In this document: positions 1-26,202 of the stretch, piece after piece
Layout of the letters: every line of letters starts with the position of its first letter
Numbering within the stretch: the first letter of the stretch is position 1
The notes under the pieces: generated by a model
Database searches by the model: none
What the model was told of the DNA's origin: nothing
The model's input: only the letters and a program-made list of their open reading frames with translations
Translations under genes and position numbers: made by a program
Source of the DNA: Verrucomicrobiales bacterium
GTDB lineage: Bacteria; Verrucomicrobiota; Verrucomicrobiia; Verrucomicrobiales; V1-33
Reading direction: 5' to 3'
Assembly (NCBI GenBank): GCA_028293125.1
Contig: JAQGPJ010000055.1
Location: 1-64,000 of the forward strand
Length of the DNA: 64,000 nucleotides

Positions 1-836
<836 letters not shown>

Positions 837-862
837 TCAGCAGGCGCCGGGACGCGCGAACT

Positions 863-903
863 CCGCGGCGAGGGGGCCGACCTAGGAGAGGGCCTCGCCG
901 CGG
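863..903 (-). promoter_or_regulatory. leuA leader hairpin (putative attenuator stem)
   Basis: Perfect 11-bp inverted repeat, CCTCGCCGCGG at 893-903 and its complement at 863-873. One arm overlaps the leader-peptide codons just after the leucine run and the other lies beyond its stop codon. No long T-run follows, so control by sequestration or by a weak or Rho-assisted stop is as likely as a classical intrinsic terminator. Confidence 0.6.
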
Positions 904-929
904 CTGGTAAGCAGGAGGCTGCCGCGCAC
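882..929 (-). CDS. leuL: leuA leader peptide (leucine attenuator)
   Basis: A 15-codon frame, GTG start, reads VRGSLLLTSRGEALS and ends in TAG 93 bases before leuA. Three consecutive leucine codons (CTC CTG CTT) are followed at once by the 5' arm of a strong hairpin. A -10-like TACCGT (936-941) sits six bases before the GTG, so the transcript would start at or near the start codon and be leaderless, as is common in Actinobacteria. Leucine starvation would stall the ribosome on the Leu run and change the downstream fold. Leader-peptide control of leuA is known in Actinobacteria. The codons are seen directly; the mechanism here is inferred. Confidence 0.72.
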   Translation of the reverse strand: MRGSLLLTSRGEALS

Positions 930-935
930 GGTGCC

Positions 936-941
936 ACGGTA
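936..941 (-). promoter_or_regulatory. -10 element of the leuL-leuA transcript
   Basis: TACCGT on the minus strand fits the actinobacterial TANNNT -10 pattern and ends six bases before the leader GTG. No convincing -35 is visible at 16-18 bp. The putative upstream element overlaps the 3' end of the XRE-regulator gene. Confidence 0.5.
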
Positions 942-949
942 GCAGCGCG

Positions 950-1585
950 TCAGCCGACGTCGCAGTCACACGCACAGCCGGGCGCGTGCACCGGCCGCCC
1001 GGAGTAGTCATCGACGTGATCGCACTCCGCGGGGCAGGTGCACATGAACTCGTTCCCGGAAGGCCGGAGCTCTCCGGCCTCGAGCCGCCGCTGCCGTTCC
1101 TCCGCGCGACGCCGCCAGTACTCCCGGCGACGGGCCTCCGCTCGTTCCCTGGGTGAGTCGCCCGGCTGGGGGAGCTGGTGATCCTCGGGTGTGCCCGCGC
1201 GCCTCCGGTACCGGTCCCGGACCCGGCGGTCGCGGTCGAACGTGTACGAGGGCTGCTCGCGGTCGTAGCGGTGCGGACCGTGCCACCAGCCCTCGTCGCT
1301 GTACCGCGTGTCCAGGTGGGCCGGAAAGTGCCGGTCGCCCCTGTCGCGCACCGCGTCAGCTGCCATGGGCACCGCCTCGTCACCTGCGTCGTCGACCAGC
1401 ACCAGTCGGAGCCCAGCGAGGGCAGCCATCATCGCGAGGACGCGGACCGGCAGGTCCCGGCTGCCGGCCTCGGCGTGCCCGATGGTCGACGCACTGACTC
1501 CCGCAGCGACTGCCAGGTCGCGTTGCGACAGGTCGGCGCGTCGCCGTATCCGTCGCAGCGATCCGGGCAGGTCGAACGAGCTCAC
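950..1585 (-). CDS. XRE-family helix-turn-helix protein with Cys-rich C-terminal tail
   Basis: A 211-residue protein. Residues about 8-60 form a lambda-repressor-like HTH (LRRIRRRADLSQRDLAVAAG, then VSASTIGHAEAG). The middle is very Arg/Asp/Glu-rich and probably helical. The last 30 residues hold a Cys/His cluster (CTCPAECDH, then HAPGCACDCDVG) that could bind a metal such as zinc. The long upstream open frame is the repeat region, not coding; I chose the GTG at 1585 because the HTH fold begins there. It is transcribed towards leuA but ends before the leuL promoter. Two copies of a 37-bp palindrome lie 60-160 bp upstream and could be operators. The target genes are unknown, and the function beyond DNA binding is not recognisable. 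Confidence 0.72.
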   Translation of the reverse strand: MSSFDLPGSLRRIRRRADLSQRDLAVAAGVSASTIGHAEAGSRDLPVRVLAMMAALAGLRLVLVDDAGDEAVPMAADAVRDRGDRHFPAHLDTRYSDEGWWHGPHRYDREQPSYTFDRDRRVRDRYRRRAGTPEDHQLPQPGDSPRERAEARRREYWRRRAEERQRRLEAGELRPSGNEFMCTCPAECDHVDDYSGRPVHAPGCACDCDVG

Positions 1586-1644
1586 CGGGTCAGCATCGGG
1601 CGACGAGCATGCCCGTCGGAGACGAAGACTCGATCTGTGGACAG

Positions 1645-1681
1645 TCGTGCTCTGCTTGCACAGGCGGAGCAGAGCACGACT
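1645..1681. repeat. 37-bp palindromic repeat, copy 1
   Basis: Identical to the block at 1709-1745. Arms at 1645-1656 and 1668-1679 pair over 12 bp around an 11-base loop. It lies between the phospholipase D-like gene and the XRE-type regulator, so it could be an operator, an mRNA-end hairpin or a dispersed REP-type element. Confidence 0.85.
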
Positions 1682-1708
1682 TGGCTGGGAACCGTGTCTG
1701 TCCGGGCT

Positions 1709-1745
1709 TCGTGCTCTGCTTGCACAGGCGGAGCAGAGCACGACT
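1709..1745. repeat. 37-bp palindromic repeat, copy 2
   Basis: Exact second copy of 1645-1681, with 64 bp between equivalent positions (about six helical turns), so both copies would face the same side of the DNA. The flanking bases differ, so identity is confined to the palindrome unit. Confidence 0.85.
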
Positions 1746-1788
1746 GTCCGGAGAAGGGATGTCGACGGGGTCCGCAATCCCCCGGCGA

Positions 1789-3381
1789 TCAGAAGCTCTT
1801 CTTCAGCCTCATCCGCAGGGGCCGGCCGTCGGGGTCATCGAGCAACCGGTACACCGGGGTCGCCCACAGCCGGGTGAACAGCGGCAGCTTCTCGGCGCGG
1901 TGCGCCCGGACCCGGCCGGGAGGGCGCGGGCCCTGTCGGCCGCTCTCGTGCCAGGCGTCGAGCGCCGCTGCCCGCTCGGTCATGACGTCCACGAAGCCGG
2001 CGGGATCGAGCACGAGGTCGTCCTCGCCACCGTCGGCGGCGAGGTCGAGGTGTTCGCGGGCCAGCACCAGTCGCAGGTCACGCGCGAAGGCCCGGGCGCC
2101 CTCCCCGGTCCCGGCCGGGTCACGCGGCTCCCGTGGATCGCGGGTGGTGTCCAGGATCGTGCTGGAGAGCTCGCTGTCGTGGGTCCACGAGCGTCGGTTG
2201 AAGTTGTCGCTGCCGACGCTCGCCCAGGTGTCGTCGACGACGCACACCTTGGCGTGCACGTACACGGGAGTGCCGGCATGGTTCTCCACGTCGAACACGT
2301 GCACGCGGCCTGCACCGGCCCTCTGGCACATCTCGATGGCGTGCCAGCGGCCGACGTACTGCGGACGCTCGGCGAAGGCCCCGTCCTGGTCGGGGACGCG
2401 GGGCACGATGACCACCAGATGCAGGTCCGGGTGGTCGGACAGCGCCTCGGCGAACAGCTGCGCAACCTCGGCCGACCACATGTACTGATCCTCGAGGTAG
2501 ATCAACCGTCGAGCCCGCTTGATCGCCTTCGTGTACCCGCGGGCCACCGATCGCTCGCCGTCCGGCGCGAAGTCGTAGGGCGGGCGGATGGCCGGATAGG
2601 TGCGCAGGTTCTGCACGAAGTGCGGCCCGCACTCCGGCGGAGGCGGGATCTGCGCCGGCAGCGGGTCGGCGTGCATCCGGGTGTGGTGCAGCTTGTCGTG
2701 GATCCATGCGAGCGGGTGGTCGGCGTCCGGGCTGTTGGGGTCGTCCCAACGTTCGCGGAAGACCGTGTCGAGCACGTGCACCGCCGGGCCGCGGATCTGC
2801 AGCTGCACGTCGTGCCACGGCGGATTGTCGCCGTAGGCGGCGGCCATGGGCAGCGGCTGTGGGTCACCGCCGTGGTCGCCGTCGTCCCGCCGCCCGTAGC
2901 AGAGGTCGATGCCTCCGACGAAGGCGATGTCCTTGCTCGGGTCCTCGTCGTGCCGCAGGACCACCATCTTCTGGTGGTGGCTGCCCATCCGGCGGATCCG
3001 CTGGTCCAGGATCACCTCGCCGCCGCCGTGCTCGATCTCGCGGTCCAGCGACCGGTTGGACTCCTTGTTCAGTGACATCCGGGCCATGTGCGACCGCCAG
3101 ACCAGGCCGCGTACGCACACGCCGCGCTTGACCGCCTCGGTGAACAGCTCGGCGACGGTCGGCCCGCCGTCGAGCAGCAGCTCGTCGGGATCGCCCCGCC
3201 AGTCGGTGAAGAAGAGGTGGTCCCCGGCGTTGAGCGCACGCACCTCCTCGACCAGTCGGGCGAAGTAGGTGCTGCCGTGCAGCAGCGGCTCGGCGAGGTT
3301 GCCGGCCGTCCATCCGGGCAGCGCTGTGTGCGGGTTCCCCCGCTCCTCGGTGCTGAGCAGCCACTGTTCCGGATCGTCCAC
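1789..3381 (-). CDS. phospholipase D-like phosphodiesterase (two HKD motifs)
   Basis: About 530 residues. Both halves of the PLD active site are present: [17 protein letters not shown] in the N-terminal half and [19 protein letters not shown] in the C-terminal half, each followed by the family's G/S-x-D/N-N pattern. Such enzymes use the two histidines for transphosphatidylation or hydrolysis of phosphodiesters, usually phospholipids; the substrate here cannot be told. No signal peptide is obvious. The start is uncertain: GTG at 3381 begins just before the recognisable sequence, while an in-frame ATG lies at 3450, close to the divergent ask promoter. It reads away from ask and its stop lies just beyond the two palindromic repeats. 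Confidence 0.88.
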
Positions 3382-3441
3382 GCGACGATCACATCGGAGG
3401 CGACCTGCGGACGCAACCGACGGAGGCCCCGGCGCGCTCGG

Positions 3442-3447
3442 TAGCCT
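3442..3447 (+). promoter_or_regulatory. -10 element for ask (leaderless start)
   Basis: TAGCCT matches the actinobacterial TANNNT -10 pattern and ends eight bases before the GTG of ask, which has no Shine-Dalgarno. The ask-asd mRNA therefore probably starts at or next to the start codon. Confidence 0.5.
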
Positions 3448-3455
3448 CATGCCCC

Positions 3456-5770
<2,315 letters not shown>

Positions 5771-5771
5771 T

Positions 5772-5810
5772 GGCGTGGGAAAGTGCCGGTAACCGGCACC
5801 TTCCCACGCC
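5772..5810. terminator. 18-bp hairpin between convergent asd and S9 peptidase
   Basis: Starts one base after the asd stop. Arms GGCGTGGGAAAGTGCCGG (5772-5789) and 5793-5810 pair with one mismatch around a three-base loop. No T-run flanks it, as is usual in high-GC Actinobacteria. It sits two bases from the stop of the convergent peptidase gene, so it can serve both. Its length also fits a dispersed palindromic element. Confidence 0.7.
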
Positions 5811-5812
5811 GC

Positions 5813-7633
5813 CTACGGCCGCACGTGCTTCAGCGCGAACGCCAGGGCGACCTCCACCTGGCGGATCGTCTCCTCGATGACCAGTGAGCCGTGCCCGGCA
5901 TCGAACCGGTACACCTCGTGCTCCTTGCCGAGCTCGCCGAGCCGGGCCAGGTAGTTGTCGATCTGCCGGATCGGGCAGCGCGGGTCGTTGGCCCCGGCCA
6001 CCACCAGCACCGGCGCGGCGACGGCGTCGACGTAGGTGATCGGCGAGGACCGCACGTAGACGTCGTGCACCTCCTCGGGAGAGCCGCCGAACAGCGCACG
6101 GTCGTAGGCCCGGAGGCCCTCCATCTCGTCCTCGTAGGCGGCGAGGTAGTCCGCGACCGGCACCTCCGCGATGCCCGCCGCCCAGCGCTCCGGCTGGGTG
6201 CCGAGCCCGAGCAGGGTGAGGAACCCGCCCCACGAGCCCCCGGAGAGCAGTGCCCGTGCCGGGTCGACGACCCCTTCGGCGACGAGCGCGTCGTAGACCG
6301 CGCCCACGTCCTCCAGCTCCGTCAGCCCGGGCCGGCCGGTGAGGGCGTCGCGCCAGGCGCTGCCGTAACCGGTGGAGCCCCGGTAGTTGACGTGCACGAC
6401 CGCGAAGCCGGCGTCCACGTAGGCCGCACGGCGGGCGCGGTAGGAGTCGTCGTCGGCCGACTCCGGTCCGCCGTGCACCAGGAACGCCGTCGCGTACGGG
6501 CCCTCACCTCCGGGCCGCACGAGCAGGGCGTGCACCTCTCCGCCGGGACCGGGCACCCAGCGGTCCTCGACCGGATAGGCGGCCGGCGGCTCCTCGGCCG
6601 ATACCGACAGCACCACGGGACCGTCGGCACGGCGGATCACCGGCGGGAGAGCCGACGAGCTCCAGGCCAGCTCCACGGTGCCATCGGGCCGAGCGGTCGC
6701 CCCCCGGACGACGCCCTGCGGGGTGTCCAGCTTCTCGAGGGCACCGGTGGTCAGGTCGTAGCGGTAGATCTCCGAGCGCGCGGCGTGGTCGTGTCCCACC
6801 AGGAGGGCAGAGCCGTCGGGATACCAGCCGGCGGTCACGTCGCCGGGCAGGTCGAGCTCGATCCCGGTCTCGGTGTCGGTCTCGACGTCCCAGAGCAGGA
6901 GCTCCTCGCGGCCGCGGCGCTCGTGCCCGACCAGCAGCCGGCGGTCGCCGGGAAGCGGGCCGAACTCCAGCGCGTGCAGCCCGCGACCCTCGCCGTCCCA
7001 CTTCTCGGCGACGACGGCCGGTGCGTCGAGGGTGGTGTCGCCGGTGCGGAGCACGCGCAGCGCCGGGTAGCGCGGATCCCCGTGCTCGGAGTGCGAGATG
7101 ACCAGCAGCTCGTCGTCCCGGGTGAGCGCGTCGACCGAGGCGGGGTCCTCGTGCCGGTAGATCACCCGCGGCGTGGTTCCCGCGGGTGCGAGCCACAGCT
7201 CGCTGCCGTCATCGGTGGAGCGGCCGATCGCGACCGCGGTCCGGCCGACCTCGAGCCCGGCCGGGTAGGCCGCCTCGACCTCGGGGACGGCGTCGGTGTC
7301 GGGTCCGCCGCCGAACGGCTGGGTGCGCCAGACGCCGAACTCGTCGCCGTCGCTGTCGGCGAACCACCAGATGGTCTCGCCGTCCGGGCTCAGCGTGCCG
7401 ATGAGCGTGCCGTTGGGCCGGTCGGTCACCTGGCGGTGGGTGGCGGTCTCCCGGTCCCAGGCGTACTGCTCGACGACGCCGCTGACGTCGGAGGAGTACA
7501 GGTTGCGGTGCGGGGCGTCCTGGGCCCAGTCAGGCAGGGACACCCGAGGGGCGCGGAAGCGGGCCTGCCAGCGTGCGGTGACCTCGGGAGGAAGAGCGGG
7601 GGTGTCAGGGGCAGCAGTTGGCTCAGCGCTCAC
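5813..7633 (-). CDS. S9 family prolyl oligopeptidase-like serine peptidase
   Basis: About 606 residues: an N-terminal beta-propeller (WD40-like, residues about 40-370, with repeats such as YSSDVSGVVEQYAWDRE) followed by an alpha/beta-hydrolase domain. The catalytic triad is visible: Ser467 in GGSWGG, Asp550 in VVAGANDPRCP, His581 in DAGHGS. The propeller of this family screens short peptides, so a cytosolic peptidase or acylaminoacyl-peptidase is likely; the exact substrate is unknown. The GTG at 7633 was chosen because it follows the stop of the upstream CBS gene by four bases and the sequence before it is a shadow of that gene. It is last in the three-gene operon. Confidence 0.92.
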   Translation of the reverse strand: MSAEPTAAPDTPALPPEVTARWQARFRAPRVSLPDWAQDAPHRNLYSSDVSGVVEQYAWDRETATHRQVTDRPNGTLIGTLSPDGETIWWFADSDGDEFGVWRTQPFGGGPDTDAVPEVEAAYPAGLEVGRTAVAIGRSTDDGSELWLAPAGTTPRVIYRHEDPASVDALTRDDELLVISHSEHGDPRYPALRVLRTGDTTLDAPAVVAEKWDGEGRGLHALEFGPLPGDRRLLVGHERRGREELLLWDVETDTETGIELDLPGDVTAGWYPDGSALLVGHDHAARSEIYRYDLTTGALEKLDTPQGVVRGATARPDGTVELAWSSSALPPVIRRADGPVVLSVSAEEPPAAYPVEDRWVPGPGGEVHALLVRPGGEGPYATAFLVHGGPESADDDSYRARRAAYVDAGFAVVHVNYRGSTGYGSAWRDALTGRPGLTELEDVGAVYDALVAEGVVDPARALLSGGSWGGFLTLLGLGTQPERWAAGIAEVPVADYLAAYEDEMEGLRAYDRALFGGSPEEVHDVYVRSSPITYVDAVAAPVLVVAGANDPRCPIRQIDNYLARLGELGKEHEVYRFDAGHGSLVIEETIRQVEVALAFALKHVRP

Positions 7634-7637
7634 CGGG

Positions 7638-8753
7638 TCATCTTCCCCCGGCGCCCGCGCCGGTGGCCGCGGCACCCTGGGGCTCGGAGTCGACGTCTTC
7701 GGAGTCGTCGAGTCGCCGGCGTTCGGCCGCGGCGTCCCGGACGTCGCCGATGAGCTGCTCCAGCACGTCCTCGAGAGCGACCACGCCGAGGAGCCGGCCG
7801 CCGTCGTCGACGACGCGGCCCAGGTGGGCGCCGGCCCGACGCATCGCCGCGAGCACCTCCGGCAACGCCAGGTCCGACCGGAGCTCGACGAACGGGGTGA
7901 GCTCCTCGGCCGGGATGGGCTGGTCTCGGTCCGGGCCTTCGGCGTCCAGCACGTCCTTGACGTGGACGAAGCCCAGGAGGGCGCCGTCGTCGGCACACAC
8001 CGGATAGCGGCTGAAGCCGAACTCGGCGACGGCCGCCTCGAGCTGGCGCGGCGTCGTGCTCCTCGGCACGGTGACCAGCTCCGACATCGGCAGCAGGACG
8101 GCGTCGATGTCGTGGTGCTCGAAGGCGAGGGCGCCGGCCGCCAGCTCGCCGACCTCGCTGCCCAGGCGGCCCTCCCGCCGGGACTGGGCGACCATCGACT
8201 GGATCTGGGCCTCGTCGAAGCTGGCCGCGACCTCGTCGGTCGGCCGCACGCCGAACAGCCGGACGAAGGCGTTGGCGAGGGTGTTGAAGAACCAGATGAA
8301 CGGCCGCAGCACCGTGACCAGCGCGGCCAGCGGCGGGCCGAGGAGCAGGGCGGCGCGGTCCGGCCCGGCCAGCGTGATGTTCTTCGGCACCATCTCGCCG
8401 AGCACCATGTGCAGCACGGTCACCAGCGCCAGCGCGACCGTCAGGGCGATCGGGTGCAGCAGCCCCTCCGGCACGTGCACCGCCGCCAGGGGTGCCTCGA
8501 TGAGGTGCGCGATGGCCGGCTCGCCCACCGCGCCCAGGCCGAGGGAGCACAGCGTGATGCCCAGCTGGGCGCCGGCCATCATCTGCGAGACGTTCCGGAT
8601 CGCGGCCAGCGTCTTGACCGCGCGGGCCGAGCCGGCGGCGGCGCGCGGTTCGAGCTGGTCGGCGCGGACGGAGACCAGGGCGAACTCCGCGGCCACGAAG
8701 AACGCGTTGCCGAGGAGCAGCGCCACCACGATCAGCAGGCTCAGAACGGTCAC
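7638..8753 (-). CDS. CNNM/HlyC-CorC-type membrane protein with CBS pair
   Basis: About 371 residues. It starts VTVLSLLIVVALLLGNAFFVAAEFALVS, the first helix of the DUF21/CNNM transmembrane domain, followed by three more hydrophobic segments to about residue 150, then two CBS domains (about 200-320). The family includes Mg2+ and Co2+ efflux or transport proteins. Unlike its upstream paralogue it lacks a full CorC_HlyC C-terminal domain and ends in an acidic, Gly/Ala tail. The GTG start overlaps the upstream stop (GTGA), so it is coupled to it; the pair may form a heteromer. Ion specificity cannot be read from the sequence. Confidence 0.9.
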   Translation of the reverse strand: MTVLSLLIVVALLLGNAFFVAAEFALVSVRADQLEPRAAAGSARAVKTLAAIRNVSQMMAGAQLGITLCSLGLGAVGEPAIAHLIEAPLAAVHVPEGLLHPIALTVALALVTVLHMVLGEMVPKNITLAGPDRAALLLGPPLAALVTVLRPFIWFFNTLANAFVRLFGVRPTDEVAASFDEAQIQSMVAQSRREGRLGSEVGELAAGALAFEHHDIDAVLLPMSELVTVPRSTTPRQLEAAVAEFGFSRYPVCADDGALLGFVHVKDVLDAEGPDRDQPIPAEELTPFVELRSDLALPEVLAAMRRAGAHLGRVVDDGGRLLGVVALEDVLEQLIGDVRDAAAERRRLDDSEDVDSEPQGAAATGAGAGGR

Positions 8754-10087
8754 GCGGAGACCTCCTGCCGGTCCGGCAGGTCCGCGTCGTCCGCTGTCCG
8801 CGTGCGAACCGCCCGGATGCGTGCGATGCGCCTGCCCTCCACGGTCTCGACGGTCAGCCGGACGCCGTCGACGTCGACGGAGTCGCCCGGCGTCGGCAGC
8901 CGCTGCAGGCGCTGGGCGAGGAAACCGGCCACCGTCTCGTAGCGGCCCTCGGGGATCGGGATCCCGGTGCGCTCGAGCACCTCGTCGGGGCGCAGCAGCC
9001 CGGAGACCAGCCAGGTGTCGTCGTCCAGCCGCTTGAGGGTGCGCAGCGGGCGGTCGGTCTCGTCGGCGATCTCCCCGACCAGCTCCTCCACGATGTCCTC
9101 CAGGGTGACCACGCCATGGGTGGCCCCCCACTCGTCGACCACGAGGGCCATCTGCAGCCCCTGGTCGCGGAGCAGGTCCAGGAGCCGCTCCAGCTGCAGC
9201 GAGGACGGGACCGCGAGCACCGGCACGGCCAGCTCACCGGCGGTGCGCAGCCGGCGGTCGGCCTCGGGGACGGCGACCGCGTGCTTCACGTGCACGATCC
9301 CGGTGACCTCGTCGAGGTCGGAACCGTAGACGGGGAAGCGCGAGTTGCCCGAACGGACGGCGGCCTGGATCACCTCGGCGGCCGTGGCGCTGGACCGCAG
9401 TGTCCACAGCCGGGTGCGCGGAGTCATGACGTCGGTGGCGTACTTGTCGCCCAGGCCGAGCGAGCGCTGGAGCAGGCGCGAGGCGACGGGAGAGAGATCG
9501 CCCTCCTCGGCCGACCGCCGGGCCACGGCCGCCAGCTCCTCGGCGTCCCGGGCGGTGTCGAGCTCCTCCCGCGGCTCGATGCCGAACCGGCGGACGATGC
9601 CGTTGGCCACCCACTGCAGCGCGCCGACCACCGAGCCGAAGATGCGGGTGAACAGCCGGAGCCCGGGGGCGACGAACGACGCCACCGCCATCGGCTCGGC
9701 GATGGCCAGGTTCTTCGGTCCCAGCTCCCCGAGGATCATCTGCAGCGTCGTCGCCAGGGCGATGGCCAGGCCGTACGAGAGGCCTCCGACGGCGCCGCTC
9801 GGGACGCCGATGCTCCCGAGGGGACCGCGCAGCAGTTCCCCGATCGCCGGCTCGGCGAGGTAGCCGACCAGCAGGGTGGTCAGGGTGATGCCGAGCTGGG
9901 CGGCCGACAGCTGGGTGGAGAGGCTCTGCAGCGCCCGGACGACCGCCTGCGCCCGCCGGTCCCCGTTCTCCGCCGACTGCTCGGCGCGGCCGCGGTCGAC
10001 GGTCGTGAGGGAGAACTCGGCGGCGACGAAGAAGCCGGTGAGCGCGGTCAGCACGACCGCGGCGAGCAGGAGCAGCCAGGCGGTCAT
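8750..10087 (-). CDS. CNNM/HlyC-CorC-type membrane protein with CBS and CorC_HlyC domains
   Basis: A 445-residue paralogue of the next gene. The N-terminal DUF21/CNNM membrane domain (MTAWLLLLAAVVLTALTGFF, then conserved AAEFSL and ALGELGPKNLAIAEP-type segments) is followed by a CBS pair (about 205-330) and a C-terminal CorC_HlyC domain (about 345-425). Members act in divalent cation (Mg/Co) homeostasis in the cytoplasmic membrane. It is first in a three-gene operon, shielded from the tRNA gene upstream by a strong hairpin. Confidence 0.92.
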   Translation of the reverse strand: MTAWLLLLAAVVLTALTGFFVAAEFSLTTVDRGRAEQSAENGDRRAQAVVRALQSLSTQLSAAQLGITLTTLLVGYLAEPAIGELLRGPLGSIGVPSGAVGGLSYGLAIALATTLQMILGELGPKNLAIAEPMAVASFVAPGLRLFTRIFGSVVGALQWVANGIVRRFGIEPREELDTARDAEELAAVARRSAEEGDLSPVASRLLQRSLGLGDKYATDVMTPRTRLWTLRSSATAAEVIQAAVRSGNSRFPVYGSDLDEVTGIVHVKHAVAVPEADRRLRTAGELAVPVLAVPSSLQLERLLDLLRDQGLQMALVVDEWGATHGVVTLEDIVEELVGEIADETDRPLRTLKRLDDDTWLVSGLLRPDEVLERTGIPIPEGRYETVAGFLAQRLQRLPTPGDSVDVDGVRLTVETVEGRRIARIRAVRTRTADDADLPDRQEVSA

Positions 10088-10144
10088 CGCCGGTGCGGTG
10101 CCCGCGCCGGGGTCCGCCCAACCGGCGAAAGGTGGGAGAAACGA

Positions 10145-10173
10145 CTCAGGGGCCGCCGGCGGCGGCCCCTGAG
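10145..10173 (-). terminator. terminator hairpin after tRNA-Pro
   Basis: Perfect 13-bp stem (CTCAGGGGCCGCC and complement) with a three-base GGC loop, starting eight bases beyond the 3' end of the minus-strand tRNA. No T-run follows, which is common in high-GC hosts. It would separate tRNA transcription from the downstream CNNM operon. Confidence 0.75.
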
Positions 10174-10181
10174 AAGGGTGT

Positions 10182-10254
10182 CGGGGTGACAGGATTTGAA
10201 CCTGCGGCCTCGTCGTCCCGAACGACGCGCGCTACCAAGCTGCGCCACACCCCG
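10182..10254 (-). tRNA. tRNA-Pro (anticodon CGG)
   Basis: A 73-base cloverleaf on the minus strand. The 7-bp acceptor is CGGGGTG/CACCCCG, the D stem GCGC/GCGC, the anticodon stem CGTCG/CGACG around loop TTCGGGA, and the T arm has loop TTCAAAT. The anticodon CGG reads CCG proline codons, frequent in this GC-rich genome. CCA is not encoded. Confidence 0.96.
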
Positions 10255-10304
10255 AGGTGCTGGTCGAGTCTAACGCTCCGGGTCCGGCGGCCCGGCGGCA
10301 GGTA

Positions 10305-11216
10305 TCACGCGGTGCGGGCGGTCAGTGTGAGGAGGGTGGCCTCGGGCGGGCAGGCGAACCGGACCGGCGCGTACGGGCTGGTGCCCAGGCCCGCCGACAC
10401 GTGCAGCCAGGTTCCCGCCGGGTGCCCGGCGGTCGGCCCTCTCCAGCGGTGCAGCCACCGGGCCCGCTCCCGGTCGATGCCGCAGTTCGTCACCAGTGCC
10501 CCGTAGAACGGGACCCGCAGCTGCCCGCCGTGGGTGTGCCCGCACAGCAGCAGGTCGTAGCCGTCGTCGGCGAAGCGGTCGAGCACGCGCGGCTCGGGGG
10601 AGTGCGCCAGCCCGATCCGGACGTCGGCATCGACGTCCGCCGGCCCGGCGACCAGGTCGTAGCGGTCGCGCTCGAGGTGTGAGTCGTCGACGCCGGCGAA
10701 CACGATCCGCCGTCCGCCGACGGTCAGTTCCCCCGCTGCGTTCGTGAGGTCGAGCCAGCCACGGGCGAGCATCCCGTCGCGCAGGTCGCGCCATGGGAGC
10801 TGCTCCCCGTGCACCCGCTTGTGGTCGGTCCGGAAGTACTTCAGCGGGTTCTTCGCCCGGGGCGCGTAGTAGTCGTTGCTCGCCATGACGAAGGCGCCGG
10901 GACGGTCGAGCAGGGGGTCGAGGGCGCGCATCGTGCCCGGGACGGCGTCGAAGCCGGCCAGGTTGTCGCCGGTGTCGATGACCAGGTCCGGTTCGAGCGC
11001 AGCCAGCCCGGCGACCCACTCCTGCTTCGAGCGCTGGCCGGCCGTCATGTGCAGATCGGAGATCTGCAGCACGGTCAGCGGCGCCGACCCCGGGGCCAGC
11101 ACGGGGACGTCGAAGCGGCGCAGCGTCCAGCGGGTGCGCTCGTACAGGCTCGCGTAGGCCGTGACCGCCGCGCCCGAGGCGACGGCGGCGGTGGGAACAG
11201 CGGTGAACCAGCGCAC
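10305..11216 (-). CDS. calcineurin-like metallophosphoesterase
   Basis: A 303-residue protein with the metal-binding set of the family: DLH in LQISDLHMTAG, GDN in VIDTGDN, ND in MASNDYYAPR, AHSPE, and GHTHGG near residue 230. Residues 8-28 are hydrophobic, so it is probably anchored in the membrane. Related proteins act on phosphodiesters or phospholipid-linked substrates; the substrate is unknown. It diverges from yqeY with 53 bp between the starts. In mycobacteria a metallophosphoesterase of this kind lies beside a penicillin-binding protein gene, matching the PBP-like tail at 11,726. Confidence 0.9.
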   Translation of the reverse strand: MRWFTAVPTAAVASGAAVTAYASLYERTRWTLRRFDVPVLAPGSAPLTVLQISDLHMTAGQRSKQEWVAGLAALEPDLVIDTGDNLAGFDAVPGTMRALDPLLDRPGAFVMASNDYYAPRAKNPLKYFRTDHKRVHGEQLPWRDLRDGMLARGWLDLTNAAGELTVGGRRIVFAGVDDSHLERDRYDLVAGPADVDADVRIGLAHSPEPRVLDRFADDGYDLLLCGHTHGGQLRVPFYGALVTNCGIDRERARWLHRWRGPTAGHPAGTWLHVSAGLGTSPYAPVRFACPPEATLLTLTARTA

Positions 11217-11269
11217 GGTCGGTCAGGGTACGGCCCGCTCGTCCCCGGCTGCCGTGTCAGGCTGGGGGA

Positions 11270-11722
11270 GTGCCCCCATTGAAGGAACAGCTGCGCGCCG
11301 ACCTGACCACCGCGATGAAGGCCCGCGACGAGCTGCGCACCGCGACCCTGCGCATGGTCCTGTCCGCGGTGAGCGCCGAGGAGGTCGCCGGCAAGGAGGC
11401 CCGTGAGCTCAGCGACGACGACGTCCAGGGCGTGCTGCGTCGCGAGGCCAAGAAGCGCCGGGAGGCCGCCGAGGCCTTCGGCAACGCCGGCCGCACCGGG
11501 CAGGCCGCGCGGGAGCTCGCCGAGGGCGAGGTGCTCGCCGGGTATCTCCCCGCGCAGCTCGACGACGCCGACCTGGCCGCGATCGTCGCCGACGCCGTCA
11601 CCAGCACCGGCGCCTCGGGCATGCAGGACATGGGCCGGGTCATGGGTGCCGCGACGGGTGTCGTGGCGGGCCGGGCGGACGGGGGCCGGGTCGCGGCAGA
11701 GGTGCGCCGCCAGCTCGGCTGA
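11270..11722 (+). CDS. GatB/YqeY domain protein
   Basis: A 150-residue protein starting at GTG (VPPLKEQLRADLTTAMKARD), entirely the YqeY fold found at the C terminus of GatB (LRMVLSAV..., GYLPAQLDDADL, GRVMGAATGVVAGRADG). GatB uses this region to contact tRNA; the free-standing protein has no settled role. It is the last complete actinobacterial gene in the window and is convergent with the chimeric frame that begins four bases after its stop. Confidence 0.93.
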   Translation: MPPLKEQLRADLTTAMKARDELRTATLRMVLSAVSAEEVAGKEARELSDDDVQGVLRREAKKRREAAEAFGNAGRTGQAARELAEGEVLAGYLPAQLDDADLAAIVADAVTSTGASGMQDMGRVMGAATGVVAGRADGGRVAAEVRRQLG

Positions 11723-11725
11723 GCG

Positions 11726-11755
11726 CTAGCGGGGAACGGGCGGCTGGGGACCGTG
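11726..11755 (-). CDS. C-terminal tail of an actinobacterial protein, probably penicillin-binding protein (fragment)
   Basis: The minus-strand frame closes with the ten residues HGPQPPVPR plus stop after a glycine run. In Actinobacteria a class A penicillin-binding protein (PonA type) commonly sits next to the metallophosphoesterase gene and ends in a Gly/Pro-rich tail, and the orientation convergent to yqeY fits. Only the tail is here; the rest is missing, replaced by verrucomicrobial sequence. The assignment rests on neighbourhood and tail composition, not on any domain. Confidence 0.4.
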   Translation of the reverse strand, partial: HGPQPPVPR

Positions 11756-14700
11756 GCCGCCGCCACCACCGCCGCCACCGCCACCGCCGCCACCGCCGCC
11801 ACCGCCACCGCCGCCGCACAGCAGACCCGGGAAGGACTGCTTGGACGTGATGCGGTAAGGAATGATCACTGTGGTTTTAGCCGGAATGTTGTCCGGCACC
11901 GCCTCCAGCAGCTCGAAGTCATTGTAGGCATCACTGACCGGAGCCTTGAACGCAAAATTGTCCGCACGGATCAGACCATGGTTGGTCAGGGCGAACTCTC
12001 CGTAGAACACCTTTCCCTGGCAAAGCTGCGGCAGATTGAGCACGGGCGGATTCACCGTCACCACCGCAGCCGGCACGTTGGTTTCAAAAGTCGCCTCCAG
12101 CAGGATCTCATACCGGTCCTCAATAGTGATGGGCACCACCTCCCACTCCACCGTCACAAAGCGGTTCGGAATGAGGGAAGTCTGGTCCAGCGTGATGCCG
12201 GGCCGCACCACCAGCCGGCCGGATAGGCTGTCATGGCCGTCCGCCGAGATGCGGAACTTGTAGTTGCCCGCCGGCAAAGTGGGATCGCCGTTGCTGTCGC
12301 GGAAGTCGGCCTCGCCATAACCGTCCGTGGTCACCATGCGCACAAAGCTGGTCACGTCCTCGCTCTGCAGCTGGATGCTGGCGGCGTAAACACCCTGATA
12401 GAGAGGATCGGGATGCTGCGGCGTGCCGGGAGCCACGTATTTCGGGTCCGGTGTCAGGGTCAGCAGATCGACCACCTTGAAGCGGACATCGCCCACGCCG
12501 GAGGCCGTTACGGCCACGCGCACGGGGATGGTCACCGCCGCATAGTTGTCGCTGGTGAACTTCACATCGAAGTAATAATCCCCCGGTGTCAGATCCGGCG
12601 GCGGCTGGATATTCAGCGACACCGGCAGATTCTGCCCAACCGGCAGGGATGCCGTCACCGGCGGCGTGTTCAGACTGATCCAGAAGGGCGGCGGCGTCTG
12701 GGAAGTGCCCTGCACGCGCACCAGCGCCAGCTGCACGTTCTGAAGCGCCACCAGACCCACGCTATTAATGATAAAGCTCTCCGAGACACTGTCCCCAGGC
12801 TTCACCCCGGTGTCCAGAATGTTGGGTGTGAACGTGGCCGCCGCAGTGGCTGCCGTGAGGGTGTATTGAATGCTCACGGCCGCCCAACCCACCAGATTCT
12901 CATCGCTGATGACCTTCAGACCAATCCTGCCCGCCGCCAGGGCGTTGCTGTTGCCGGTGAAGACAAAGGGCAGCGTGCCGCGCTCCAGTCCCGCCAGATT
13001 GACCGGCGCGCCCGGCACCACGGAGATGCCGTTGGGCAATGTGTCATCGGGGACGACCCGCAGGTTGGTGGCGGTGGTGCCGTCGCCGGCCTTCACGGTC
13101 AGGTTGATGTTCTGCCCGAAGTTGCGCGGCGCACGGAGGGCGATGCCCGCCGGCTCCACGGTTACCCGGGAGATCACGAAGGAGTCCTGCACGGTTTTGC
13201 CCAAGAGGTCCGGATGGGTGAGCCACACGCTGTAGGTGCCGCCCTCGCCGGCCAGCGGCGTGAAAGTCCAGGAGAAGTTCCCGGCGGCGTCAGTGGTCAC
13301 CTGCGCGGTGCGCTCAAACCCGCCGCTGGAGATACCCAGCCGCAGGGGGCTGTTGGGCACTGCGGCTCCGCCGGTGCGGGCTGCCGCCCGTCCGCTGATG
13401 ACCACCGGCTGGTTGCCGAAGGAGACCTTGGGCGTCACGGCGGTCACGATCCCGTCGTAGCTCACGTCCGTCAGGGAGGCTTCCCCACGCACGGTCATAC
13501 CCGGCGAAGTCACCTGCTCGGGCCGTCCATAGCGGTAATAAACGCTGTCGATGGTCAGCTGCACCGCCAGCAGATTGGCCGCAGTCTCCGGCAGCTGGAT
13601 CTGGAAGATGTCGGAAAGGAATTCCGCATTGGGAGCCAGACGGATGACGCTGGTGCCGTCGGAGACCGTGACCACCCCGGCTCCAATGTTGATGCGCACG
13701 GGCTGCACCGCCAGGGTGTTGCCGGCGGGATCCAGCAGCGTGAAGCGGATGTGCGGGGAATCCGCGCCGCCGTTGCTTTTCGCCGCCTGAATTTCGACCG
13801 TCTCGGTGGAGGTGTTGCGCACTCGGAACTGGACCCCGCCGAAGCCACCGCGGGTGAAGGTGCCGGGCACCAATTCGGCCACCAGCCCGCCGTCCGCCAC
13901 CGCCACCGTGCCGCTGCCGGGATACTTCAGCAGGGCTCCTTCCTCAGGACGGGACTCTATCAGCAGCGTGACCGGGGCCGTGGCCTCAGTGAGAGTGGAG
14001 TAACCACCCACCACCACACCGACCTGGCGGGTTTCACCGGGCGCGAGGTTGAAGAGCTCAGACTGGTGCACCTGTCCCGCGAGGGTGATCTTCGCCAAGG
14101 CATTGCTCAGCGTGGCCGCGGCCGAGGGATTGGTGACCGTGACCAGCAGGCGGCTGACCAGCCCCCGGCGCACCGTCTGACCTTCCGCCAAGGAGATCCG
14201 CAGCGGCAGCAGGGTGAGTCCCCGGGCCGGGCTCTCCGCCGAGGCGGTGTCGATGCTGACAACCGAGTAGAACCGGTCGCCTCCGTTCCAGGATTGATCC
14301 GTGAAGGTGGTGGCGGGCAGCAGTGCCGGATTCAGCTTCACGCCGGTGTCGCGCGGTCCGGCATACACATTGTAGCCCGTGATATCCGGCGCGGCGTTGG
14401 TCCAGGCAAGGACCGGGGCTCCGGTGGCCGGGCGCTCAATAGTCAGCGAGCTGACCGCCCACAGCGTGGTATTGAGATAGGCGCTGTTGGAGGGCGCGGA
14501 CTCATTCCCCGCGGCATCCACGGCGGTGACGGCGTAATAACGCTGCGCACCGGAAGGGGAGGGATCGACATACTTATTCTGGGTGAGGGTGCTGATCAGC
14601 GGTGTCAGTCCGGCAATCGAGTTGATAGGCGCTCCGGCGCGGTAAACGTGGTAGACGGCACTGTTGGCCACGGACTGCCACTGGGCCAGGATGCCATTGC

Positions 14701-17700
14701 TGGCCAACACCAGCGCGAGCGACTGCGGCGTGCCGGGAGCCACGGAGTCCGCTGTTGCCTCCGCGGGAGGCGTGGTGGCGGTGCCGGTGGCGGTTTCCCC
14801 GTTGGCCGTGCGCCGGGTGGCGATGGCATAGAGGTATTCCCCATCGGTGCCGGGCGTGTCGCGAAAGGTCAGGACCGCAGGATCCGCGATTGCTTGGAAG
14901 GGTGCCAGAGTCTCTGGTCCCCCATTCACGGTGGAGCGGTAGAGCTGGTAGCCGGATGCTTCGGTCACTGCCCCCCAGGACAGTTCGATCACCCCCGCCG
15001 GCTTGGCGGCGGCGCGGAAATTCGCCGGGGCATCCAGCGGCGGCAGCTCTCCCTGGTAGATTTCAAAACGGGAGGGAACGGTGATACGGGTGTCAGTGTT
15101 GGCCAGATCGTCGGTGGCGGAGTAGCTGAACACCAGATCCTCCGGCTCCGGCAGGCCTGCCTGTGCAGGCAGTGGGAGGACACCGTTCCAAGTGCGGCTG
15201 TCCACCCCTTGGGTAAGCACGATCGCCGCCGGGGCCTGATGACCGGGCAGACGGGTCAGACTCCAGGCCAGGGACGGCGTGCCTACCGGAGCCTCATCCA
15301 GATGCAGGGTGAGGGCCAGCTCTGCAGGACTGGCCTCGATGTTCAGGATCGGGGCCGTGGCGCTGAGCGTCAGGGCATCCGCGGACGGGCCTTTGGTGTC
15401 GATGACGATCTGCGCGGTCGCCGAGGTGCCCGCTCCGCGGTTTTGCGTCAGGTCACGCATGGAGTAGCTGGCCTGATAGGTGGCGGATCCAGTGCTGGTG
15501 GTGATGGTGAAGTTTCCTTTGTACTCCAGTGGGCTGCTGCCCGTGGTCAGAGTCACGGGAATGGGGAATCCACCGCCTGCAGGGGCAAGGCTGAGGAAGG
15601 GATCGCCGCTGAGAGGTTCAGTCACCGTCAGCACCACATCCACGATGCCGGTGCCGTAGCGGCCATTCTTCAGTTTGTCAGGGTTGCGCGGCGTGAAAGT
15701 GATGCTGGCCAGAGCGGGAACCGTGCGGTCGCTGGAGGCGGTGGCAGTCTCGGAGAGCACGCTGGTGTTGCCGGCGACGCTGGTGGTGGTGAGACGGTAA
15801 TACCACACACCGTCCGTGGCCGGGGTGTCGTCATACTGCTGCAGGGTCACGGGGGCGCTGTTCACCTTGACGACGCCGGCATCGGCGGTGGAGGTGAAGG
15901 GTGCCGCGGCGCGGTAGATATCGTAACCTGCGATGGAGGCCCCACCGGCGGCCGACCACGTCAGGCGGATGCGGCCCTCCTCGCGGGAGGATGCCTGGAG
16001 CGAACCGGGGGGCGACGGCACCGCAGTGTCGAGCGTCACCCCCACCTGATTGGAGAACGGGCCCGGACCGGCGGCATTGACCGCGCGGGCGCTGATCTGA
16101 TTCACGCCCATGGCCAGGGTGACACTGGACTGCCACTGTCCGCCGGAGGTGACAGCCACGGCACCGGGCAGACCGCTGCCGTTCAGGTGCAGCCGCACGG
16201 TGGTGTTGACCGGGGCGGTGCCCTTCACCATGACCACGTTGCTGTTGGTCAGGAAACCGCTGGCCGGGGAATTGATCACCGGAGCCGCGGGCGGCGCGAG
16301 CGCCAGCTGCACATTCCGCGTGACCGTGGTCAGGGTGCTGAAGGTGTCCCAGGCGCGGATGGTAAGGACATACTGCCCGTTGGCGGCGGCCTCGGCGTTC
16401 CAGAAGGCGGCATACCCGTCAGCCCCGTTCTGATCGATGCCCAGGCTGGTGTCCGTCCCGCTTTGGGGACGGATGAGGAACTCCACACGGCTGACCCCCG
16501 AGGGATCGGCGGCGTCAGCTTTCAGGGTGCCGGAGGTGGTCAGCACCGCGCCGTTATTCAGGGTGGCGTTGTTGTACTGAATGTTCGAGACCACCGGACC
16601 GGCGGCATCAATGTCATACAGCGCCTGGAGTGTACCGCTGGGGTTCTGGCCGGCCAGATATGCCCGGGCTTTCAGCGTTCCGGTGGCATTGATCTGGATG
16701 GGGACCGTGTAGGCCGTGCCTGTGGTGTCGGTCGGCTCCGCGCCGTTGAGGGTGTAATAAATGGTGGCTCCCGCAGTCCCTGTGGACAGCGAGACATTGG
16801 CCTGCCCGGCATAGGATCCGCCGGCGGGCGAGGCCTGCGGCGTCTGCACCGTCAGGGCGAAGGGCAGCCCGGAGTAAAGCTGTGTGGAGGGAATCACCTC
16901 CCGCGGCTGGGAGGAACTGCTCCAGCCCAGCTGCACGGAGGCCACGCCGGTCTGCTCGAAGTACTCCAGCTTCACGGCATATTGCAGACTCTTCTGGAGG
17001 GCGACCGGGTTGGAGGCGGTGTCCGCGGCTCCGGGGATGAAACGGTTAATGATGAGCTCATTGGCCTCAAAAGTCCCGCTGCGGTCGAGGTCCACCCACA
17101 GGCGAGCTCCGTCGTCGCTGTTGACGTGAAAGCGGTGGGATTCCGTGAAGCGCGGCTGCACGAAGCCGGTCCAGCGGATGCTGAACTGGTCCGATCCCAG
17201 CCCCGTCACCGGGCTGGTGTAGCCAAAGTTGAAGTTCACTGTGGGATCGCGCCGGAGCACGCTGCTGCCCGTGAAGGCGGGACTGGCGTAGTATTCCGCC
17301 GCCAGGCCGGTGCCGGTGCCCGGAGCCGCGCCGATGGCGAAATAGGCCGAGGAGACCACGCTGGGGTTGTAGCCATCCCGGAAGCCGCGGGCGCGCACCT
17401 GAGTGCTTTCCGTCAGGGTGAGGGCACCGGTGTAGATCGGGGAGACGGAGGTGGGCTCACCGCCGTCCAAGGTGTAGCGGATCACGGCGTCAGGCGTGGT
17501 GGACTGGATCTGCACCGGCACCGGACCGGTGAAGAAGCCGCCATTGGGCGAGAGCACAGGCGCGGCGACATCGAGGGACTCGATGCCGTAGCGGGTGCGC
17601 AGGGAGGATTCCGCATCCGTGCGCTCATTGGTGTCAAGCGCGCGGTTGTAGATCATCACCTCCGCGATGTCGCCGAGGAAATAGGCATCGCTGCTCCAGT

Positions 17701-20700
17701 TGCTGCGGCCAAGATAGTTGATGGTGCGCTGCGCCACAGGCGGCAGGGGCATCACTGCGGTGCCTTGGAGCACACCATTCTTGTAAAGCTGCGCGGTGCC
17801 GGCCGGTGAATGAACGACTGTGAAGATCTGTTCCTGGCCCGTGGTCAGACCGTTGGCGATAGCCAGCGTCCCTTGGGAGGAGGATCCGTTGAAGAAGCCG
17901 TAGTCCAGGGTGGAGGTGGTGCCCTCGCGGTACAGATAGATGTTGTTGGCGGAGGAGCCTTGACCGAAATCGAAGAGTCGCTCATAGCTGCCAGTGCCGG
18001 ACGCATGATCGGGGCGGGCCACAAAAACGGCAGTCAGCCCCTGACTGAAATCGCGGAACCCCGCAGGCAGCGTCAGCGCGTCGTTGCTGCCATCGAACCG
18101 GACGGCGGCCTGGTTGCCTATGCCGGCGGCGGCCAGCACGGGACGGCGGCCAGCTTCGGACTGAAAGGCGTCATTGCCCTGCCCTGACTGGTCGGCCCAT
18201 GCGGTGATGGCTCCCGCATCCTGGCTGATGCCTGTATCGGCGCGCAGCCAGAGCAGGAGGCCGTTGTGGGGAACGTCCCCGCTGCCGAGGATGGAGAAGC
18301 CCGCGCTGGCGGTGGCGCTGGCGGTGACACCGGGGGCGAAGACTTTGGCCTTCACTGTGGCGGCGGTGGTCAGGGTGAACGGCCCGCTGTAAAGGCTGGA
18401 GGCCGCCGTAGGCTCGTTGCCGTCAAGGGTGTAGCGGATGGACGAACCGGCCAGCGGGCTGGTCAGCGTGACCTGCGCCTGATTGGCGAACGAGCCGCCG
18501 TCCGGGGTGATCACCGGAGGCTCGGCGGTGCGCGGCAGGTTGTAACGTTGGATCAGATAGGTGTCGAGGGCCGAACGCTCGGCGGGAGTGAGGTCGCGGT
18601 CATAGAACAGCGCCTCCGCGATCTCCGCACCCATGGAATAGGCGGAGTTCTGCTGAAGACGGCCCAGCAGGAAGAGGTCGCTGGATTCGGCATCCCCCGT
18701 GTAGCTGCGGCTACTGACCGTCAGGCCGTTCACGCGGTCAAGGGAGGTTCCCTTACCGTCGATACTGAGCGAGACCTCGTAGGGTGTGTTCGCCGCAAAG
18801 GTGAAGTTGTAGTCGCCATAGTTATTGCCCGCGGCGGAGTAACCTTGGCCGCCATTGCGGATGCCGGTGTAGGTGTAGGCTCCGGCAACCGCTCCCTGGC
18901 CGGAGAGCGCATAGCCGCTGGTGCCGTTCAGGGTGTGGTAGCGCAGCACGCTGACGAAGGTCCGTGCGCTGGCGGGTGCATGGTAGCCGGTGTTCAGGAA
19001 GTCATCGGCGCCGTCGAAGCGCACCGCGGCCTGACCGTTGATGGAGGAGGCGGCCAGGGTGGGCTGGGAAACTCCCGTGGGCTGGGTGGCGTGGCGGCCT
19101 TGGCCGGACTGGTCGGCCCAGCGGGTGATACCGGCCCCGGCGCTGACGCCCTTGTCCCCGCGGTACCAGAACTTCAGGCCTGAACGGGTGAAGCCAGTGG
19201 CGGCGTCAAAAGTGAAGGACGACTCACTGACGTCGCTGGCCTGAAGACCGGTGCGGAAACCGCGGGCTTTGAGCACGGCGCTGTTGCTGACCGTGACTGG
19301 ACCGCTGTAGAGCGTGCCGGTGCCCTCGGTGGGCTCACTGCCATTGAGCGTGTAGTAAATCCGCACATCCGCCAGACTGGAGGAGAGCGTGACCGGCACG
19401 GAGGACGCGAAGATGCCGCCGTCCGGCTCCACGCGGAGCGCCGGGATTTTGGAAGGCACATCATTGTCGGCATAGGGCGTCAGGAGCACGTGCTCCGCGC
19501 CATTGCCGGCGATACCGTCCCAGTCCACCAGCGCGGGCACGGAGTCGATCTTACGTCCATCCGGGAAATACACTGCCACACCCAAATAGTCGTTGCCGCC
19601 GAATTCCGCCTGCAGACCCTCGACGTAATAACGCTTGCCCGCCTCCAGCGTGACCGCTGTGGTCCGGGGTCCGGTGTAGGTGGAAACCACGCCGCCGCTT
19701 TCAAACAGCAGCACCTTGTTGGCGGGATCGTCATCGGTGCTCAGGTAGAACTTCACTTGGTCGTCCCAGATGAAATCGAATCGGTACTGCCCCGTGGCCG
19801 GCGGATTCAGGTAGCCCCGGTAGCGGGCGACGTAGTTGCTTCCGTAGCCATTATGATAGAACACCTGCTCCACGGACTGGGCCGCGGGACTGTATGGATA
19901 CTGCCAAGCGGTCTCCAAGCCGTTGATGCCCGTGGAAATGCCGGTGTAGTACTGCCGCAGAATGCCGGAGCCGCCGCCGCTGGTGACCAAGTAGTCGCCG
20001 ACCGCGGTGTCGCTGGCCAGCTGCCCCACCACAAAGGATTTGGCACGGATCTGGGAGGTCGCTGACAGCGTGAGGGGCGCAGAGTAAAGGGTGGAGGTCT
20101 CCGTGGGCTCGCTGCCGTCCGTGGTGTAGCGGATGGTGCCGCCGGGGGTGGCGGAAGTGATGGTGACAGGTGCCGTCTGGCCGCTGTAAACCCCGCCTGG
20201 CGGGGACAGCTGGGGCACGGAGGCGGCCAGAGGCTGGCTGTATTTCGCAGCCAGCAGGGTGTTCACCTGATAACGCTCGCTTTCCGACAGCGCCTTGTCA
20301 TAGATGATGATCTCCGCGATGTCCGCACCGCTGTAGCCCGCGCTGGAGTAGCCGAAGCCGTTGATGGCCAGCGGGCCGGAGAGGCCAAGAATGTCGGGGT
20401 TCGCGGTCCGCCGGATGCCATCGAGCCAGAAATCGGAACGGTTGGTGTCCTGAATGGCCCACGCGGAATAAACAGTTCCGACCGCCGCGTTCAGCCCGCT
20501 GGAGGGCGAAACCCAGCCGCCCGGATAATACATCTGCTGGCCATAATAGAGACCGAAACGCCAGTCCCCGGTCTGGCTCTGCAGCAGGCGGTCGCCGGTG
20601 CCGCCGGCATTGCGGCGGTAAACCATGAACACCGAGGACGGGCGGCCCAGGCTCAGAGCCGGATTCACCCGCAGGCCCTGGGCGGCGCTGGTGAAGCGGA

Positions 20701-23700
20701 ACACCGGCTTGCCCTCGATTCCGTCGGCTCCGGTGGCCAGGCCGGGCTGGAGGCCGGAGTCGAACTGCACGGCGTCATAACCATGACCGGAGACGTCGTG
20801 AATGCGGATGATTTTCCCGTCCGCCGATTTGGTCAGGGGACCATCGGCCCGGAACCAGGCCACCAGATTGCCAGGCGAAGGCATGGGTGAGGGGGCGGCG
20901 CTGATGATGTATTCCGCCGCTGTGGGATTGCTGGAGGAGAATCCGGTCCGGAAAGTGGCGGCCTTTAGCGTGGCCGAGGCGGAAACCGTCACTGGCGCGC
21001 CATTATAGGCGGGGGATCCGGCAACAGGCTCGGAGCCATCCAGCGTGTAGCGGATCACGCTGTCGGGGGTGGTGGTGGACATGCTGACCTGCACCGCCGC
21101 CGGATAGCGGCCACTGGGCGGGCTGAGCAGCGGGGACCCGGCCAGCGGGGTGTAAACCGCGTAATGTCCGGCCAGATAGCGCTCGACCTCACCGCGCTCG
21201 CTGCTGGTCAGGGCGCGGTCGTAGATAATCAGTTCGGAAAGGTCGGCATTGACCGGCTGATTGTAGGTGCCCACAGCGCCGCCAAGGGCGATGCGGCCCA
21301 GCGGGCCGGAGGGCGATGAATTCTCGGTGATGTCCTCGCCGTTGAAGAAATAGGAGGTGTTGTTCGGGTTCAGCAGCGCGGTGGCGACCGCCGGCTCGAA
21401 GGGATTCACCGTGTTCTGGCGCACCCAGCCATTGGCATACATTCCCGGACCGTCATGCAGGCCCATCAGCCAGTTGTGGCCGCTGGCGCTTTGGAGAAGG
21501 CGGCCCAGACGGCCCACGCGCTGAAAGACCATGAACACCGTGGCCGGACGCTGCACATTTAGCCCGGCATCCCCCAGCATACCGTCGTCCACGCCGTCAA
21601 AGCGCACCGCCGAGCGGCCGCCGATGGCATCAGGCACCAGCAGCGGCTGGCGGGCGCTTTCGGTTTGCAGGGCGTCGAAGCCGTTGCCTGACAGGTCCCC
21701 CCAGCGGAAAATGCGGCCCTGGGCATCGCGGCTCACGGCGGTGTCGGCCTTCAGCCAGGCGCGCAGGCCCGCGAGGGGAATGGGCACCGAAACCGCGCCG
21801 ACATCATACCGGCGCTCGGTGGTGTAGGATTCGAGATAGCCTGCGCGGAAAGCCTTCGCCTTGACAGTGGTGCTGGTGGCCACGGTGAAGGGGCCGGTGT
21901 AGGGTGTGGAGGCTGCGGTGGGCTCCGATCCGTCGAGGGTATAGTAGACCGAGGTCAGCTCCGTGGGGCTGTTGATGGAGACCGCCACCGGCGTGGTGAA
22001 GCGTCCGCTGACCGGCAGCATCTCCAACACCGCAGCCCGTGGCGCATACAGCCCATAGCGCACCGCCAGATAATCCTCCACCTGCTGGCGCTGGGTGTCG
22101 TTGAGGGCGGTGGGATAGGCGATGATCTCCGCGATTTTCACGCCGGCGGGTCCATGATTGCGTGCCAGACCGCCACCGATGGACAACCGTCCGGGAGCGC
22201 CGTCACTGATGCCGTAGTTCTGGGTGTAGTCCTCGCCGTCCACATAATAGCGCGTGTCCGACGCGCTCATGGTCATCACATTCAGTTCCGGGGTCAGACG
22301 GGGCAGGATCCGGTTCCTGACATAGTTGTTTCCGGAATACAGTGAGTAGCTGGTGTGGAACAGCCAGTTCGATCCGCTGTTGTTCTGAAGGATATAGCCG
22401 TCGGCGCCAGGAGAGCGCTCATAAATAAGAAACACGGTGGAGGGCCGGGGCAGATTCATGGACTCCGGCCCGATCAGGCCATCGTCGGCACCATCGAAAT
22501 TCACCGTCGCGAGGTGTGCGGGCGCGGGCGCGCCGGGAAGGCGGAAACGGAAATTGGCGGCCCCGTAGGCATGGGGAGCCGCATATCCGGGCACCGCGTT
22601 GGGAAAGGCGCCGGCAGTTCCGCTGTAGCGGCCGGTGCTCACAGGCCGCACGCCCTTGCCGGAGGTGATGGAACCCACACCGTTGCTGACCAACAGGTAC
22701 TGCTCAGCCGAGGTGTAGCCATGGGCGGCAACCGTGTAGGATCCCGGGATGAGATTGAGAGCTGCGGGCAAAGGCTTGAAGCGGTAACCTGCGGAAAGCG
22801 CTCCCGGATCCGCTGTCGTGAAAACGATCTCCGCCAGGGCGGTGCCATCGGCGGTGTCATCGTTGAAGGTGTCCGGGGTGCCGTTGTCGTTCCGTTTCCA
22901 GAGCTTGACGGTGATGTTTTGGCTGAGGCCGTCGGAGTTATGGTCAAAAGCGCCCAGATGGGTCAGGCTCACCGGGGCCTCCACCACGAAGTCCATCCCC
23001 AAGGTGCCGGCATAGGTACTGTTACCTGCTGCGCCATTGTCCGTGCGCACAGCGGCATCGTCGTTGACGGCAAGGCCATCGGGGTCCACCGCCGGACGGC
23101 TGGCGGGATCGTTGGTCTGCATGTGGTTGCCGCCTCCGCTCAGGTCACGCCACCGGATGACGTGCCCGCTGGCGTCGGTCTCCACGCCGGCATCGCCGCG
23201 CAGCCACAGGGTTGCTCCGGCCACCGGCAGGGTGGCTGCATCGGCATAAAACTGCTCGGCCACGCTGCTGGGCTGCCGGCCCGCCGCGAAGGCCACGGCC
23301 CTCACACGGGTGCCGCGCGGCACATTGAAGGCACTGCCGCTGTAAAGGGAGGAGGCTGCGGTCGGCGTGCTGCCGTCCAAGGTGTAGCGGATTTGCGCTC
23401 CGGCGGTGGAAGCCGTCAGCGTGACGCTCACCGGGCCGGTGCCCGGACTGCCGGCGGGGGCGATCTCCGGTGCCACGGCGGCGGGCTGCAGGATGCCGTA
23501 TTTCACCGCCAGATAATCCTCCACTTTCCGCCGGTCGGCCTCTGTGAGGGCGGCGGGAAAAGTGATAACCTCCGAAATTTTCTGGCCCAGGGGATCGATG
23601 CTCAGTCCCATGCCTCCGCCCAGCGCCAGGCGTCCGGGATTGCCGGAAGTCAGATTGGGATTGGTGGTGAGGTCGGTCCCGTCCACATAATACCGCGTTC

Positions 23701-26149: not shown

Positions 26150-26202
26150 AATCAAAAATCTCAGGGTCTAAAAATCGGAAAAGGGACGGAAAGAGATGCG
26201 CT

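Follow-up and report, generated by a model that had tools for sequence, protein, structure and literature searches.

A glycine-codon tract in a verrucomicrobial contig almost certainly marks an assembly join between Blastococcus DNA and the bin's own genome

Judged by comparison with other genomes, the junction in contig C92 is almost certainly an assembly artefact, i.e. a chimeric contig in which DNA of a Blastococcus species, an actinobacterium of soil, is joined to DNA of the bin's own organism. The window, by which we mean the whole 64,000-nucleotide stretch analysed, covers the start of this contig; the bin (G000) is a draft of 6.48 Mb in 120 contigs with 99.1% completeness and 0.7% marker-based contamination. 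The two sides of the junction belong to different organisms: the left side is 99.85% identical to Blastococcus, and the right side is closest to the bin's own family. Moreover, in independent genomes the two sides lead into different sequence beyond the junction, the left into a penicillin-binding protein (PBP; in the Blastococcus contig L093 and in isolates) and the right into an RHS region (L032-L034). An earlier note on this DNA had proposed that a metagenome assembler joined two genomes at a low-complexity bridge, and the different continuations of the two flanks support this proposal. Separate searches with each flank, a check suggested in the same note, led to a Blastococcus contig carrying the PBP on the left and to giant RHS proteins of the same family on the right. 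Feature coordinates are listed in Table 1.

Table 1. Features on both sides of the junction in the window
Feature	Position	Strand	Remarks
Foreign block, Blastococcus sp. (Geodermatophilaceae) DNA, start of contig C92	1-11755	.	L093 alignment
2-isopropylmalate synthase leuA, truncated by contig end	3-788	-	
Aspartate kinase (ask), actinobacterial	3456-4721	+	Only full aspartate kinase detected in bin
Aspartate-semialdehyde dehydrogenase asd	4718-5770	+	
S9 family prolyl oligopeptidase-like protein	5813-7996	-	
CNNM/CBS/CorC_HlyC transporter-like protein	8750-10087	-	
Metallophosphoesterase	10305-11216	-	100% to Blastococcus RYN_169; ~77-91% to Geodermatophilaceae genomes
YqeY-like protein (Blastococcus)	11270-11722	+	
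HGPQPPVPR plus stop codon, C-terminal 9 codons of the Blastococcus PBP	11726-11755	-	Identical to L093
(GGY)20 tract, junction zone	11756-11815	-	L093 match in register to 11779 only
Giant surface-type protein, N-terminal ~4,780 codons, bin's own lineage, truncated before RHS/YD-repeat region	11816-26155	-	65% identity, three same-family genomes, last 500 aa
Bin's own sequence	11816-64000	.	Contig C92 runs on to 153,752 bp, like composition in part read

The left flank was traced with the metallophosphoesterase (10305-11216) as query against 84,980 species, each represented by one genome; the closest matches were from Blastococcus, Geodermatophilus and Modestobacter. The single match at 100% was on JAOPWH010000168.1 (L093), entitled 'MAG: Blastococcus sp. 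isolate RYN_169'. Window positions 464-11807 align to L093 with 99.85% identity; in register, there are 11 mismatches over 464-11779, and divergence starts at 11780, within the glycine tract. Positions 1-463 lie beyond the end of L093 and align to other Blastococcus loci, e.g. L060 and L088. The foreign block begins at base 1 of the contig, and a single junction is visible. The genes in this block had been described as actinobacterial, and this holds for leuA, ask, asd, the S9 peptidase, the CNNM protein, the metallophosphoesterase and yqeY; the flank as a whole is ~99.9% identical to a Blastococcus contig. Plasmid records searched with YqeY gave distant matches only. The bin's own YqeY is encoded at C115:23337-23759 and is 40% identical to the window copy, which is 100% Blastococcus; similarly, the leuA DNA of the window has a second matching place in the bin, on C118, with 68% DNA identity. 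Thus, yqeY and leuA would be duplicated by the join.

The ORF that crosses the junction is on the minus strand (26155-11726), comprises 4,809 uninterrupted codons and has the C terminus SKQSFPGLLC-G20-HGPQPPVPR followed by a stop codon (written out, ITSKQSFPGLLC-G20-HGPQPPVPR-stop). The earlier observation that a (GGY)20 tract bridges the open frame was reproduced base for base: positions 11756-11815 are exactly 20 Gly codons, each of them GGC or GGT on the minus strand. Past the tract, L093 continues into the gene body of a PBP, an open frame of 785 residues that encodes transglycosylase, transpeptidase and PASTA-like domains and ends in APPPPA-G15-HGPQPPVPR-stop; the last 9 codons are the same as in the window ORF. 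Window positions 11726-11755 and part of the tract are therefore identical to the C-terminal end of a PBP that has both a transglycosylase and a transpeptidase domain. Compared to an actinobacterial class-A PBP (PBP1A family, TIGR02074; PF00912, PF00905 and PASTA-like domains), the window has the tail in common, namely the final 9 codons and the initial part of the tract; the entire gene body is missing from it. The body of the Blastococcus PBP was also absent from the bin in a search that, as a positive control, found the PBP in the source genome.

A PBP at this position is the rule among actinobacteria. A PBP-similar ORF ends beside yqeY in 66 of the 76 actinobacterial loci tested, isolates among them; two of the 10 loci without a PBP match start too near yqeY, and the other eight may reflect a crude choice of ORFs. 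The PBP tails beside yqeY are mostly Pro- or Gly-rich, and at one of these loci (L050, URHB0062) the tail is poly-Gly, too. From the Pro-rich tail, the earlier note had predicted a PBP beside the metallophosphoesterase and yqeY genes, and Blastococcus does have a PBP there, with a tail rich in Gly and Pro. L093 is itself a MAG contig, as is the contig studied here, which tempers certainty about the chimera and raises the converse reading that the window contig is correct and L093 the chimera. However, the PBP is ~62-83% identical in other Geodermatophilaceae and lies at the same place, and the order PBP-yqeY-metallophosphoesterase recurs in many isolate genomes; moreover, the composition of L093 is left-type throughout (see below). 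We rejected L093 as the chimera on the basis of this isolate synteny, and consider that reading to have next to no probability.

A gene from the right side of the tract has relatives throughout the bin's own family and order. Over the last 500 residues before the tract, the giant protein has relatives of 65% identity in G008, G018 and G019, three genomes that belong to the bin's family, and the alignment reaches the Cys just before the tract, in a shared SFPG-x-x-C-G motif (SFPGLLCGGGG in the window; SFPGIVCGPEAGGDDG in the relatives). The relatives then go on via CIRYTACFNYTY to RHS/YD repeats, and none of them stops at the tract; their open frames comprise 6,669 codons in G018 and 6,672 codons in G019. 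By contrast, the window copy ends before the RHS/YD-repeat region. At the position of the tract, the relatives have short glycine-rich stretches and no long Gly run exactly there. Thus, in comparison with the giant RHS/YD-repeat surface protein of the family, the window copy is similar up to the tract and lacks the RHS region. A search of the bin for the RHS continuation gave no close match, the best being partial and 28-34% identical, in other long open frames. The part at 11816-26155 (-) is a giant secreted multidomain protein with repeated LamG-like, CHB_HEX/Fn3-associated, PA14-like, Big and FN3-like units; its probable start is an ATG two codons past the listed TTG, ahead of a stretch that resembles a signal peptide.

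The remaining genes on the right flank agree with the earlier description of a surface giant and Gram-negative envelope genes. They include DUF1592/1588 cytochrome proteins, LpxC/FabZ, YbgF/BamD-like proteins and NirA; the DUF1592/1588/PA14 cytochrome proteins and the LpxC-FabZ fusion fit Verrucomicrobia, we infer. The DUF1592/DUF1588/DUF1595 cytochrome-type (PSCyt/PSD) proteins are encoded at 33038-35713 (-) and 44197-45210 (+), and their family has about 12 matches in the genome and many in relatives. The LpxC-FabZ fusion (bifunctional deacetylase/dehydratase, NF009667) is encoded at 48312-49691 (+).

The unbroken frame also fits a genuine gene that encodes a giant surface protein, has its own polyglycine tail ending in HGPQPPVPR and lies beside a block of actinobacterial-like genes that belongs to the lineage itself, and Gly-rich codon runs do occur elsewhere in the bin, e.g. 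in the gene for a glycine-rich RNA-binding protein on C44. This is extremely improbable, since the tail of the Blastococcus PBP recurs unchanged in the final 9 codons and at the start of the tract, no relative ends its giant protein at the tract, and the yqeY of the block, which matches Blastococcus at 100%, shares only 40% identity with the copy native to the bin.

Base composition changes at the same place. GC content is 0.69-0.75 at 1-12 kb and 0.54-0.73 beyond (mostly 0.58-0.68), and GC3 of the genes drops from 0.92-0.96 left of the tract to 0.75-0.83 right of it. A comparison of tetranucleotide composition, likewise suggested in the earlier note, showed that affinity switches at ~12 kb: 2-kb blocks correlate with the left profile at 0.69-0.89 up to ~12 kb and at 0.39 or less beyond it, a test that is partly circular because the profiles were built from the same flanks. 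In an independent stretch of the window contig (64,001-80,000; L120), the correlation is 0.19 to the left and 0.96 to the right profile; by contrast, L093 has correlations of 0.99 to the left and 0.22 to the right profile and is left-type throughout.

Within the right flank, GC content is locally 0.68-0.73 at 52-55 kb over a Rad50-like ATPase gene (51983-54805, -), where the tetranucleotide profile is still right-hand. Other contigs of the bin with similar tracts, some of them near contig ends (C44, C72 and C111), gave no sign of chimerism in the 2-kb pieces read, which had the bin's own composition. The tract on C44 (700-1100; L121) encodes the long Gly-rich tail of a glycine-rich RNA-binding-type protein, i.e. 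natural poly-Gly codon runs are present elsewhere in this genome.

Illegitimate recombination can be mediated by repeats in DNA. In a very recent horizontal transfer, a Blastococcus fragment with leuA, ask, asd and yqeY, 11.8 kb long or longer, could accordingly have recombined at the GGY run into the giant gene, replacing the native aspartate kinase and supplying the organism's only one. A full copy of this enzyme was found in 16 of the 17 relatives of the bin searched, and the only full copy detected in the bin is that of the window; this can be read as functional replacement by a foreign gene and speaks against a chimera. However, a gap in the 120-contig draft accounts for the missing enzyme as well, and the simplest explanation is that the native aspartate kinase of the bin probably falls in such a gap. 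Moreover, the block is ~99.9% identical to a known Blastococcus genome with no shift in composition, its housekeeping genes keep the native Blastococcus order, and the bin lacks the giant gene's RHS half. Finally, the block reaches the contig end with no second junction seen, and host sequence is thus found on one of its flanks instead of both. Altogether, these observations make transfer very improbable. The marker-based contamination of only 0.7% also appears to argue against a chimera; such measures are weak for this type of error (PMC8201837).

We therefore return to a chimeric contig, for which the parents can be proposed. One would be the Blastococcus class-A PBP gene with its in-frame polyglycine tail of GGC and GGT codons, and the other the bin's gene for the giant RHS-type surface protein, which probably has a glycine stretch at the corresponding place. 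The assembler would have confused the two and switched genomes within the repeat, probably within ~11779-11815. The tract in the window is built of words that are also present in the tract of L093, with exact runs of 33 bases (11757-11789, offset 12) and 24 bases (11790-11813); the crossing can therefore be placed no more finely than ~11779-11815. In Blastococcus, such a Gly run occurs naturally, with 15 Gly in L093; the remainder of the window's run can be assigned to neither parent. With both parents contributing GGY codons in one frame, an open frame after joining would be expected and not a coincidence.

Chimeric contigs are a misassembly known from metagenome-assembled genomes and defined in the GUNC study of Orakov et al. 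2021 (PMC8201837), who also noted that estimators based on single-copy markers are less sensitive to non-redundant contamination. The window has the common features of such contigs (PMC8201837), i.e. fragments of two source organisms in one contig and low marker-based contamination; it differs from them only in where the join lies, a low-complexity run of codons across which one frame stays open. As a chimeric contig in a MAG-type assembly, the join belongs to a known class of error and is biologically nothing new.

Its consequences lie in what would be read from the genome. With a chimeric origin, the 4,809-residue protein does not exist, yet it would appear in an automatic annotation; likewise, the copies of leuA, ask, asd and yqeY are foreign, and annotation would credit the organism with actinobacterial genes. 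In-frame codon repeats can in this way conceal a contig chimera from frame-based as well as marker-based checks. Pathway reconstruction and screens for horizontal gene transfer would be misled about this organism, since no aspartate kinase other than the foreign one was detected in the bin.
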